Source of the DNA: Nitrospina sp. LS_NOB
GTDB lineage: Bacteria > Nitrospinota > Nitrospinia > Nitrospinales > VA-1
Reading direction: 5' to 3'
DNA: 64,000 nucleotides
Assembly: GCA_001542995.1 (NCBI GenBank)
Contig: LFLA01000003.1
Coordinates: 1-64,000, forward strand
The notes beneath the pieces are model-generated. The model searched no databases. It was not told the DNA's origin and saw only the letters and a program-made list of their open reading frames with translations. Below are positions 893-59,912 of the stretch, in pieces. Both the position numbers and the translations under genes were made by a program. Position 1 is the stretch's first letter, and every line of letters starts with the position of its first letter.

Positions 893-1115
893 AACCTTTG
901 CGTAAGTCGGAAAAGCGAGATTACCCCTGCGGGGCACGAAAGCTTAGGTGAAACATCACGTCTTCACGGAGCCTGTGCTGAGCGAAGTCGAAGTATTCAG
1001 AATGACAATACACAGAAACGAGATTCTTCACTGCGTTCAGAATGACAAGAAACGCCAATTTGTCATCCTTTTGTTCAGCATGACAATACTGGGCTATTTT
1101 GTTATTCTGAGGGAC
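893..1115. repeat. Dispersed repeat cluster
   Basis: The 378 bases between the barrel gene and rpsT hold no convincing gene. They contain a palindromic TACCCCTGCGGGGCACGA-type element (922-960, ending in ATCACG) and then several copies of a second motif built around TTCAGAATGACAA (about 985-1115, both orientations). The same two motifs occur next to each other at 2169-2280. These are short intergenic repeats with no coding content. Confidence 0.7.
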
Positions 1116-2139: not shown

Positions 2140-2307
2140 GGGGAGAGACCTTTGCATAACCCCGAGATTACCCCTGCGGGGCACGAAGTTTAAGGAAAAA
2201 TATCACGTCTTCGTCACGTTGTTCCTCAGAATGACAAAACAGCCCTTTATTGTCATGCTGAGCTTGTCGAAGCATCTCGCTTTTCTGCTTTATCGACTTA
2301 CGCAAAG
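2140..2307. repeat. Composite dispersed repeats
   Basis: It contains a palindromic element (2169-2207, TACCCCTGCGGGGCACGAAG through TATCACG) followed by CTCAGAATGACAAAAC and GTCATGCTGAGCTTGTCGAA motifs, ending with ACTTACGCAAAGG, which also occurs inverted near 893-905. The right end fuses with the beginning of the YkgJ-like gene. Confidence 0.65.
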
Positions 2308-3845: not shown

Positions 3846-5348
3846 ATGCAGATTCTTTTGGATGTGGATTTCCTGATTCAGGCATCAAAAAATATTGCGG
3901 ATTCGGCGGTGTTAAGCCTGTGCCGTCAAAAGCGTTGCCAGGGCTGGGTAGCGTCCACTTCCATTCCTGCCATTTGGCAGGAGGCGGGAGTACGAAATGT
4001 TCAATCAATTTTGCGGGACGTGGCTGTTTTGACTCCCACGGCTCATGATATTGACCTGGCCCTCGGTTCTAAAAAACCCTTTACGCAAGCCTTGGCGACA
4101 CGTCTGGTAGAGGCCGCCGGGTTGGACGCGGTGGTCACGCTTGCCCCTGAAAATTTTTCCGGCTTGACAGTAGAAGCCCTGACTCCCGGACAGTTGCAGG
4201 AAAAATTGGATGCTCCGCCAGAGCCGGTTGAAGAAGTTCGTTTACTGGATATCACCGCCTCGTATCACCAGATATTAAATGAAGTGGAAAAGGAGATGGC
4301 GGAAACGATTCGATCGGGACATTTCATCCTTGGCCCTAAAGTATCCCGGTTGGAAGAGAGGATGGCAGATTATTGCCAGACCAAATATGCCGTTGGAGTT
4401 TCATCCGGAACCGATGCGTTACTGATTGCGCTGATGGCTTTGGGAATTGGCCCGGGTGATGAAGTGATCACCTCCCCCTACACATTTTTTGCAACGGCAG
4501 GTTCTATCATTCGCGCCGGGGCTAAACCGGTTTTTGTGGATATCAATGACATTACTTTCAATATCAAGCCGGAGCACATTGAACGTTGCATCACCCCAAA
4601 TACCAAAGCCATTATTCCGGTGCACCTTTATGGGCAATGCACAGATATGGACCCTGTTCTTCAACTGGCCGGGAAAAAGGGTCTAGCGGTGATTGAAGAT
4701 GCTGCGCAGGCGATTGGTTCTGAGTATAAGGGCAGGCCGGCAGGTTCGTTGGGGGATATGGGGTGCTTCTCATTTTTCCCCGCAAAAAATCTTGGGGGAT
4801 TTGGCGACGGCGGTCTGGTGACCACTAACTCCAAAGAACTTTACAAACAGTTAAAGATTATCAGAGTGCATGGTTCGGAACCGAAGTATTATCATAAAGT
4901 GATAGGCGGAAACTTTCGTCTCGATGCTTTGCAGGCTGATGTTGTGAGTGCCAAGCTGAACTTCCTGGAGGACTGGACCGAGAAAAGGAGGGGAAACGCG
5001 CAAACTTATAATCAGCTATTTAAAGATTCCGCATTGACCCCGTTTGTCCAACTGCCTCCTGAAGTGTTTTCCCGTCATGTTTATAACCAGTATGTCATTC
5101 GCATGGGAAGCCGCAGGGATGAACTCAGAACTTTTCTAAATGAAAAGCGGATCGGGTGTGAAATTTATTATCCCATCCCGCTTCACCTTCAAGACTGTTT
5201 TAAATCTTTAAGCTATAAAGGTGGTGACTTCCCTGAATCTGAAAAAGCTGCAAGGGAGACCTTGGCGCTTCCCATATCCCATGAAGTCGATCGAGCTCAG
5301 CAGGAATATGTTGTTCAAATGATCCACCGGTTTTTTCTGGGGGAGTGA
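3846..5348 (+). CDS. PIN-like domain fused to DegT/DnrJ/EryC1/StrS sugar aminotransferase
   Basis: Residues 133-500 are a PLP-dependent nucleotide-sugar aminotransferase of the WbpE/ArnB type: SSGTDAL (~187), EDAAQ (~284, PLP-ring Asp285), FFPAKNLGGFGDGG with the Schiff-base Lys314, and the C-terminal YYPIPLH motif. These enzymes make amino sugars for O-antigen or other surface glycans. Residues 1-120 form a separate module with the spacing of a PIN-like nuclease domain: LLDVDFLI (Asp6), an acidic IWQEAG, HDID (~68-70) and AGLDAVVTLAPENF (~91-104). Family members are normally about 370 residues, so this is a fusion. Both parts are read in one frame without an internal ribosome site that I can see. 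The gene is convergent with ppiC, 13 bases away. Confidence 0.85.
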   Translation: MQILLDVDFLIQASKNIADSAVLSLCRQKRCQGWVASTSIPAIWQEAGVRNVQSILRDVAVLTPTAHDIDLALGSKKPFTQALATRLVEAAGLDAVVTLAPENFSGLTVEALTPGQLQEKLDAPPEPVEEVRLLDITASYHQILNEVEKEMAETIRSGHFILGPKVSRLEERMADYCQTKYAVGVSSGTDALLIALMALGIGPGDEVITSPYTFFATAGSIIRAGAKPVFVDINDITFNIKPEHIERCITPNTKAIIPVHLYGQCTDMDPVLQLAGKKGLAVIEDAAQAIGSEYKGRPAGSLGDMGCFSFFPAKNLGGFGDGGLVTTNSKELYKQLKIIRVHGSEPKYYHKVIGGNFRLDALQADVVSAKLNFLEDWTEKRRGNAQTYNQLFKDSALTPFVQLPPEVFSRHVYNQYVIRMGSRRDELRTFLNEKRIGCEIYYPIPLHLQDCFKSLSYKGGDFPESEKAARETLALPISHEVDRAQQEYVVQMIHRFFLGE

Positions 5349-58541: not shown

Positions 58542-58689
58542 TGGCGAGACGCCACAGCCAGTGTGCGACAGACGCTCACTATCGTTCGCGAGCCGCGAAA
58601 ACCCTAAGTTCGTTGCCCTGTTAACGATTATTTTTTTTCTGCTCAGATAGGGAAAACCAAATCCCCCCAACCCCTGTGGCATTTGACAT

Positions 58690-58782
58690 TAGCTTTCATG
58701 CCCGGGACGGGTACTTTGAGGAAAGGGGGCTTCAAAATGGACCCCTCTTTTTCAAAGAGGGGCTGGGGTGATTTACAACCTG
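58690..58782. repeat. Dispersed repeats in the gap before hicA
   Basis: The 350-base gap after the radical SAM gene holds an inverted palindromic element (CATGCCCGGGACGGGTA, 58690-58713) and CCCCTCTTTTTCAAAGAGGGG (about 58741-58761), a hairpin, followed by CTGGGGTGATTTACAACC. The latter sequence recurs in interrupted form at 59530-59646. Confidence 0.65.
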
Positions 58783-58823
58783 TCTTGCGATATGTGGAAA
58801 TCCTATTTGGAAGGTTTTTTTAA

Positions 58824-58875
58824 TTGATTCCAGTTAGATTACCTAGTATTCTAATTTATGTAACTAAATTTAGTT
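58824..58875 (+). promoter_or_regulatory. Putative hicAB promoter and operator
   Basis: TTGATT (58824-58829) and TATTCT (58847-58852) are spaced by 17 bases. A perfect 14-bp palindrome AACTAAATTTAGTT follows at 58862-58875, immediately before the ribosome site of hicA. Its place fits an operator for the HicB repressor (inference). Confidence 0.5.
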
Positions 58876-58891
58876 GCTAAGCGGAGGAGCT

Positions 58892-59146
58892 TTGAGTCGG
58901 AAAGAAAAATTAATCAAACGCCTCATGGGACGGCCCCGGGATTTAACCTGGGAAGAGTTGTCCGGGGTGTTGAAGTGTCTGGGATACCGGGAGTGGAAAA
59001 AAGGCAAGACGGGAGGTTCAAGGCGGCGATTTGTTCATGACAGTGCTCCGCCCGTCAGCCTGCACAAGCCGCATCCGAAAAATATTGTAAAACTATATGT
59101 GATCCGGGAATTAATAGAATTTTTAGAGCGTGAGGGACTGTTATGA
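58892..59146 (+). CDS. hicA: HicA-family toxin (mRNA interferase)
   Basis: An 84-residue protein with a double-stranded-RNA-binding-like fold: LTWEELSGVLKCLGYREWKK, TGGSRRRFVHD, VSLHKPHPKNIVKLYVIREL and the closing FLEREGLL. The GSRxxF and LHKPHP motifs are typical of the HicA subgroup paired with HicB. The start is TTG 58892 after GGAGGAG. It would cleave mRNAs when free of HicB. Its stop overlaps the hicB start (ATGA). Confidence 0.87.
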   Translation: MSRKEKLIKRLMGRPRDLTWEELSGVLKCLGYREWKKGKTGGSRRRFVHDSAPPVSLHKPHPKNIVKLYVIRELIEFLEREGLL

Positions 59147-59505
59147 AAGACATGATGCAATACAAGGGATACTTTGGTTCAGCCCATTACAGTGATGAGG
59201 ATGCTGTTTTTCACGGGAAAATCGAATTTGTAAGAAGCCTCGTCACTTATGAGGGGAGCACGATTAAAGGTCTGCAAAAATCCTTTAAAGAGGCCGTGAA
59301 CGATTATCTGAAAATGTGTGCGGATGAGGGAACAGAGCCTGAAGAATCTTTCAAGGGAAGCTTTAACGTGCGAACGGGCTCGGAACTGCATCGGTTGGCG
59401 GTTTTAGCGGCCAAGGAAAGAGGCACTAACCTGAATCAGATTGTCACTGAGGCTCTGGAGAAACATCTTAAGAAAACAGGCAGGACTTCTATTAGCCACA
59501 GATAA
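59143..59505 (+). CDS. hicB: HicB-family antitoxin
   Basis: A 120-residue protein: a degraded RNase H-like N-domain (YKGYFGSAHYSDEDAVFHGK, FVRSLVTYEGSTIKGLQKSF, KEAVNDYL) and a C-terminal ribbon-helix-helix-like DNA-binding part (GSFNVRTGSELHRLAVLAAK, NQIVTEALEKHL). It neutralises HicA and represses the operon. The last residues (SISHR) are encoded by the start of an ATTAGCCACAGATAAACACA repeat, so the native end may have been altered. Confidence 0.87.
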   Translation: MKDMMQYKGYFGSAHYSDEDAVFHGKIEFVRSLVTYEGSTIKGLQKSFKEAVNDYLKMCADEGTEPEESFKGSFNVRTGSELHRLAVLAAKERGTNLNQIVTEALEKHLKKTGRTSISHR

Positions 59506-59529: not shown

Positions 59530-59912
59530 TCCCTCTTTTTCAAAGTACCCCTTCGGGGCATGAAGTTTACGGAAGGGAATATCACATACCCGTTCCGGGC
59601 ATGAAGGCAAGGGTTAATTATCACAATGGCTGGGGTGATTGACAACCAGTAGATTTCTTCTATCCCCCGCTGGTTTGACATTCAACCCCCCGCCTTGCAC
59701 CTTTTATTGGTATGCCAAACTAGAGGCCAAATGTAGTCAAGAATGGATGTGAAATACCCAACCTAAGCTTTCATGCCCGGAACGGGTACTTCGTGATATC
59801 CGTTTCCGATAAATTTGTGAGCCTGTGGTGTTACCTACCTTTGACTCATGCCCCGCAGGGGTAGGAGGGGTATGTGATATCCCCATCATTAACTTCATGC
59901 CCCGAAGGGGTA
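59530..59912. repeat. Dense cluster of palindromic repeats, one nested in another repeat
   Basis: The 435-base gap after hicB has no gene. Two direct copies of the TACCCxTTCxGGGCATGAAG ... ATCACA element (59546-59586 and 59587-59625) interrupt a CCCTCTTTTTCAAAG / GGCTGGGGTGATTGACAACC repeat that is whole at 58741-58782. Further inverted or paired copies lie at about 59764-59800 and 59844-59912 (CATGCCCCGCAGGGGTA and CATGCCCCGAAGGGGTA). Confidence 0.75.

Follow-up and report, generated by a model that had tools for sequence, protein, structure and literature searches.

A 38–41-nt hairpin element that probably moves as a single unit in Nitrospina

In the window, that is, the whole 64,000-nucleotide stretch of Nitrospina sp. 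LS_NOB DNA that we analyzed (contig LFLA01000003.1), a palindromic repeat is split by two copies of a short element. We named the inserted element at 59546-59625 and its relatives E. E is almost certainly a mobile insertion. The best explanation of the data, to which we assign a probability of roughly 0.6, is that E is a non-coding mobile element of 38–41 nt whose hairpin and short tail constitute the whole moving unit.

The split palindrome and its insert

The sequence-only reading had described an intact palindrome near 58741-58775 and a second copy of it split by two direct copies of an element. The palindrome, designated H1, was found intact at 58742-58773, within a base or two of that position, and the split copy consists of exact halves, CCCTCTTTTTCAAAG at 59531-59545 and GGCTGGGGTGATT at 59628-59640, with AT following the second E copy. 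For the full H1 pattern, the number expected by chance in the window is 0.00. The intact H1 is the right half of a two-hairpin unit, and the left half (58660-58729) is split by an E in the opposite orientation. The features are as follows.

58660..58674, - strand: 3' part of the left H1 half, AATCCCCCCAACCCC on the + strand
58675..58713, - strand: E copy, 39 nt, in the left half of the same two-hairpin H1 unit, at the symmetric position
58714..58729, - strand: 5' part of the left H1 half, CCCCCTTTCCTCAAAG in the orientation of E
58742..58773, + strand: intact right half of the two-hairpin H1 repeat, CCCCTCTTTTTCAAAGAGGGGCTGGGGTGATT
59531..59545, + strand: 5' part of H1, CCCTCTTTTTCAAAG, left of the insertion; uninterrupted counterparts in the same genome (C10, L008) and in G013 (L052)
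59546..59586, + strand: E copy 1, 41 nt, with hairpin TACCCCTTCGGGGCA and a tail ending in ATATCACA
59587..59625, + strand: E copy 2, 39 nt, in tandem to copy 1, with hairpin TACCCGTTCCGGGCA and a tail ending in TTATCACA
59626..59640, + strand: 3' part of H1, ATGGCTGGGGTGATT (AGGGGCTGGGGTGATT in the intact copy)

The two E copies differ in their stems (CCCC/GGGG versus CCCG/CGGG) and in length (41 versus 39 nt) and therefore do not represent a fresh tandem duplication. The earlier view that two copies had moved holds as regards movement; the pair is better read as two E units, a single E being the usual inserted unit. At the position matching 58660-58784, G010 carries a related composite, which speaks neither for nor against insertion at that place. 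Directly upstream of the split H1, at 58874-59505, lies a pair of frames encoding a HicA-like protein (a weak match, below cut-off) and HicB.

To define the element, 83 copies were aligned from stretches covering ~0.86 Mb, about a third, of the genome. The consensus is TACCC(C/G)TNC(G/C)GGGCA(T/C)GAAG...GGAAGGNATATCAC(A/G), with the tail ending in TATCAC(A/G), and the copies are 38–41 nt long, nearly all of them 39–41 nt. Information content rises from ~0.2 to 2 bits at TACCC and is back at background near +41; the hairpin end is sharp, the tail end is defined, and most flanks show no conservation. The alignment thus gives E consistent ends, so the lack of such ends, named in the sequence-only reading as grounds for rejecting an insertion, does not apply.

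The E hairpin pattern occurs 10 times in the window against 0.27 expected, and 238 times (116 + 122; ~240) in the 2.65-Mb draft genome against 10 (4 + 6) for a reversed control pattern. These counts, like that for H1, rule out chance. Among 66 distinct copies, stem pair 5-9 is C-G in 50 and G-C in 16 with no mismatch, and 63 have a TNC loop, which reads GNA on the bottom strand. The pair is compensating and the loop is kept, and therefore the hairpin is maintained; judged from these substitutions, stem and loop appear to be under selection. Base 15 covaries with the last base (T..A 46, C..G 14, T..G 5, C..A 1), an association that would reflect either two subfamilies or a long-range pairing. 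Rfam yielded no match to E at or near the gathering score, and a search among the tail-less hairpins for a longer parent element, in which E ends would enclose a gene, found none. Only 4 of 72 copies lie in ORFs of at least 150 aa, though such ORFs make up 77% of the sequence; E insertion avoids genes.

Empty sites and the direction of change

For the empty-site test, the flanks of each E were joined and an uninterrupted match was sought in the ~0.86 Mb of the same genome, with 11 shifted-junction controls. An uninterrupted counterpart without any gap was found for 43 of 73 junctions, whereas the controls gave 0–4 of ~73 in each of the 11 tests (pooled Fisher P ~4e-39). By an automatic sort, which leaves a few more among the rest, 9 of the 43 junctions stand beside or inside another E. 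The composite CCACAGA..-CCCTCTTTT..AAAG-AGGG..GGGGTGATT occurs uninterrupted, without E, in C10 (L008) of the same genome and in L052 of the sister species G013. Target duplications, which the sequence-only reading had proposed to define, were absent from the filled/empty pairs, and the flanks joined without loss. The paired junctions show E inserting precisely, leaving no visible target duplication or deletion; ordinary target-duplicating DDE transposition does not fit them.

One insertion lies in a gene. A 41-nt E at L070:1388-1428 (C24, near 321.4 kb) interrupts a small ORF and breaks the filled reading frame, and both a paralogue 2.9 kb away and the homologues in six other species are uninterrupted. 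Therefore, the empty form is ancestral and E is the newcomer. Two tiny, overlapping frames (MENLTHTIMIWSAVANTV.. and MTFQEITVSIWNLIG..) occur here in duplicate, at L070:1343-1580 and 4257-4470, and six relatives carry homologues. The earlier proposal of a mobile insertion is thus borne out by uninterrupted counterparts in the same genome and in relatives and by the derived state of the filled gene, and the suggestion that short palindromes had moved, here into another repeat, is upheld by the empty sites together with that gene insertion.

The reverse direction, in which the filled state is ancestral and E was lost precisely to give the uninterrupted copies, is extremely improbable. Direction is not always readable within repeats, and some filled/empty pairs have identical flanks, as loss would allow; however, the gene case sets one filled copy with a broken frame against seven uninterrupted homologues (the paralogue and those of six species), and most of the phylum lacks E. 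None of the comparisons made gave a sign that an uninterrupted form had arisen by deletion.

The targets of E include H1, a second repeat H2, ACAGATG repeats, E itself and one coding gene. In the sample, about half of the H1 tails are filled (~10 intact, ~9 with E), always between CAAAG and (A)GGGG and in one orientation, with the hairpin end toward CAAAG; the arrangement is the same in G044, which belongs to another genus. Template switching or replication slippage between palindromes, an origin raised in the sequence-only reading, could have put E-like hairpins into H1 without dedicated mobility, given that C-run/G-run palindromes form host and insert alike and that some copies are tandem or nested. 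We nevertheless regard it as very improbable, since unrelated targets (H2, the coding gene, ACAGATG repeats) all carry E with the same two ends, without microhomology or deletion, and it would not predict one fixed position and orientation in H1.

The E copies borne by H1 are not clearly one lineage, judging by their nearest-neighbour concordance (0.29 versus 0.11 by chance, P 0.10), and one of them matches copies found in H2 (between GCGAGAT and TCTTCG). This variety, together with the match, argues for separate arrivals. The H2-borne copies do form one lineage (concordance 0.89), and this set may have spread partly as an H2 + E composite rather than by repeated insertion. The further E copies in the window include two in H2 and one nested in another E.

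922..960, + strand: E copy of the CACGA..CACG subfamily, 39 nt, in host repeat H2 (between GCGAGAT and TCTTCAC)
2169..2207, + strand: E copy, 39 nt, in H2; the joined flanks equal an uninterrupted copy over 63 nt (L071:17499-17437)
59748..59788, - strand: E copy, 41 nt
59792..59823, - strand: 3' part of an E copy into whose hairpin another E is inserted
59824..59863, - strand: E copy, 40 nt, inside the hairpin of another E; uninterrupted counterparts exist
59864..59872, - strand: 5' part, TACCCCTCC, of the split E copy
59873..59912, - strand: E copy, 40 nt

E thus occurs also in tandem and within the hairpins of other E copies (59792-59872). In the E-in-E composites (L062:2725, L067:2544, L072:18985 and window 59792-59872), GGCTCA replaces GGGGCA after the inserted copy, as if one such composite had itself propagated. 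Between the E copies at 922 and 2169 lies a fragment of an IS110-type transposase (Transposase_20; C5:1551-1718, - strand of the window). Some intergenic regions are mosaics of E and further small repeat families, AGCAATAACTTGTTG/AGCCGAG, GCTACTGGCCCCGCGCCTAGCGG and CCACCGGCGGCTCGCCGG (for example L015, L080, L086, L092).

These composites bear on whether E is mainly a passenger, amplified by recombination within H1 + E, H2 + E and E-in-E units with few true insertions. The single lineage among the H2-borne copies (0.89) and the GGCTCA common to the E-in-E composites favor such amplification, but the diversity of the H1-borne copies, the many different targets and the mostly unconserved flanks of E do not, and we consider it unlikely as the main route.

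Base preference at the insertion point is weak (A/T at -2 and -3, G/C at +2, C/T at +3). Insertion points are slightly more hairpin-like than neighbouring positions (0.56 versus ~0.46), and general hairpin targeting was dropped as an explanation because the rise at the junction is only slight. The orientation of E relative to GC skew is 45:27 in this genome, a weak trend, and shows the opposite trend in G044, where 2 E hairpins are forward and 17 reverse, nearly all of the reverse ones on one 1.6-Mb contig; a replication-strand bias, a hallmark of single-strand transposition, was dropped for this reason.

Distribution and the search for a mover

Of 77 Nitrospinota genomes, 24 contain E with its tail, and 23 of these belong to one family. 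Within a genus, tailed copies range from 0 to 93 per genome, and within one genus hairpins range from 0 to 134; the richest genomes are the present one (134) and G051 (120). An exact search with a fairly strict pattern, covering a single genome from each bacterial and archaeal species, returned five contigs labelled Nitrospinota and one short contig labelled Alphaproteobacteria. The latter (L118, 4.4 kb, from the MAG OFTM99) is possibly a mis-binned Nitrospinota contig. Among viral sequences, a single contig (L129, IMG/VR) has an exact E hairpin, near the contig start, and is possibly host DNA. E is essentially confined to Nitrospinota, and its copy number is very uneven. In G051, many copies show no difference over 38 nt, as would follow a recent burst. 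E has amplified separately in different Nitrospinota species, as the range of copy numbers within one genus and these G051 copies show.

We then considered which enzyme might move E. On the RAYT hypothesis, which has been put forward for GTAG REPs, E would be a REP and the genome's own RAYT-like (Y1 HUH) transposase would move it; the sequence-only reading had pointed to such an association. The genome encodes one RAYT-like Y1_Tnp protein of 325 aa with a weak Bac_DnaA_C (DnaA C-terminal-type) match, and both of the richest genomes have Y1_Tnp. However, no E is present at the RAYT-like locus, where the flanking repeat is a different inverted repeat, GTCAAGTCCACTATTG; GGGGTA is followed by G, as a GTAG tag would have it, in just 11% of copies; and Y1_Tnp occurs in 9 of 26 genomes with E and 12 of 34 without (60 genomes; Fisher P 1.0). 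Seven E-rich genomes lack it, including G015 (73 copies, 94% complete) and G010 (38 copies, 94%), the genomes of this survey being drafts, so that any single absence is weak. The RAYT link fails on these three points, and we consider this mover improbable. The RAYT-like gene itself (L041:840-1930) is bounded by the inverted repeats GTCAAGTCCACTATTG and resembles the TIR-flanked 'TIRYT' genes (PMC3733652).

The compact covarying hairpin, the tiny unit and the lack of target duplication would also suit spread by way of an RNA copy, a small hairpin RNA being reverse-transcribed and then integrated. This is still less probable: the genome, the richest in E, contains no reverse transcriptase (RVT_1), reverse transcriptase shows no association with E over the 60 genomes, and Rfam gives no match above the gathering score. 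Reverse transcriptase, IS110, Y2 HUH and serine recombinase were all rejected as the mover, as neither Y1 nor any of these four co-occurs with E over the 60 genomes; the present genome has no Y2 or serine recombinase, and one IS110 fragment.

The mechanism that we prefer, and to which we would give a little short of an even chance, is transposition of E as a single-strand hairpin. E would move as a folded single strand, the bottom strand folding as TGCCCC-GNA-GGGGTA. A trans-acting, non-duplicating enzyme, of the IS200/IS605-like HUH type or functionally similar, would cut that strand at two places, the hairpin foot and TATCAC(A/G), and the excised E would be pasted into exposed single-stranded DNA, with palindromes such as H1 favored. 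A further proposal, which we hold to be rather unlikely, is that the ~40-nt hairpin is a complete and still active unit, that its mover is an unrecognised enzyme or else host proteins of replication and repair, working on folded single strands, and that a different palindrome of the genome serves as a site-specific landing pad.

Comparison with known small repeats

The small dispersed repeats (SDRs) of Nostoc and other cyanobacteria, reportedly described by Elhai and co-workers in Genome Research in 2008 (18:1484; cited in PMC3116915 and PMC2884548), are said to be very small and mobile, with no known mover. E has SDR-like traits in being shorter than 100 nt, non-coding, dispersed and mobile. 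It differs in its size of 38–41 nt, its defined tail, its unrelated phylum and its strong choice of a site in another palindrome.

GTAG and CGTC REPs are extragenic palindromes of 20–40 nt in high copy number, and some families reside inside other palindromes (PMC3733652), among them GTAG-15 in A. variabilis, GTAG-23 in T. roseum, whose target has hundreds of copies, and the CGTC-1 dimers of H. neapolitanus. E is likewise a short, high-copy extragenic palindrome (~240 hairpins; 4 of 72 copies in ORFs), but it carries neither of the two tags, has no RAYT gene beside it, ends in one conserved tail, and its empty sites were demonstrated individually. From column frequencies, a CGTC tag is not conserved at the end of E; CACG/TC arises where the host is H2.

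REPINs are non-autonomous short palindromic mobile DNAs built of two inverted REPs; in that work, REP singlets were not seen to excise (PMC3116915). E resembles them in its non-autonomous short palindromic mobility, whereas a lone E is the inserted unit in the gene case and in several H1 copies. Unlike a MITE of a DDE transposon, E has no terminal inverted repeats (its ends are TACCC and TATCACA) and no target duplication. Miniature elements derived from IS200/IS605 share with E the terminal hairpin, the lack of target duplication and orientation-specific insertion, but E has one hairpin rather than hairpins at both ends, no fixed 4–5-nt target and no parent element that we could find. The mitochondrial repetitive hairpin-forming and double-hairpin elements are reportedly also short, intergenic and dispersed but are organellar and of different sequence (PMC2800124). 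Full IS elements inserted into REPs are also reported (PMC1525189).

Our literature search found no paper on such repeats in Nitrospinota. E works like known small repeats but fails the tag, partner-gene and two-hairpin tests applied here. The spread of the smallest bacterial repeats is a long-standing question, and most families are known only as static. To our knowledge, RAYT, the proposed mover, does not account for all of them. For E, a single genome displays the ends and the empty sites, a gene disruption that is derived and a target base that recurs, and relatives carry from 0 to >100 copies. This makes a search for the mover practical, by comparing E-rich with empty relatives or by direct assay.
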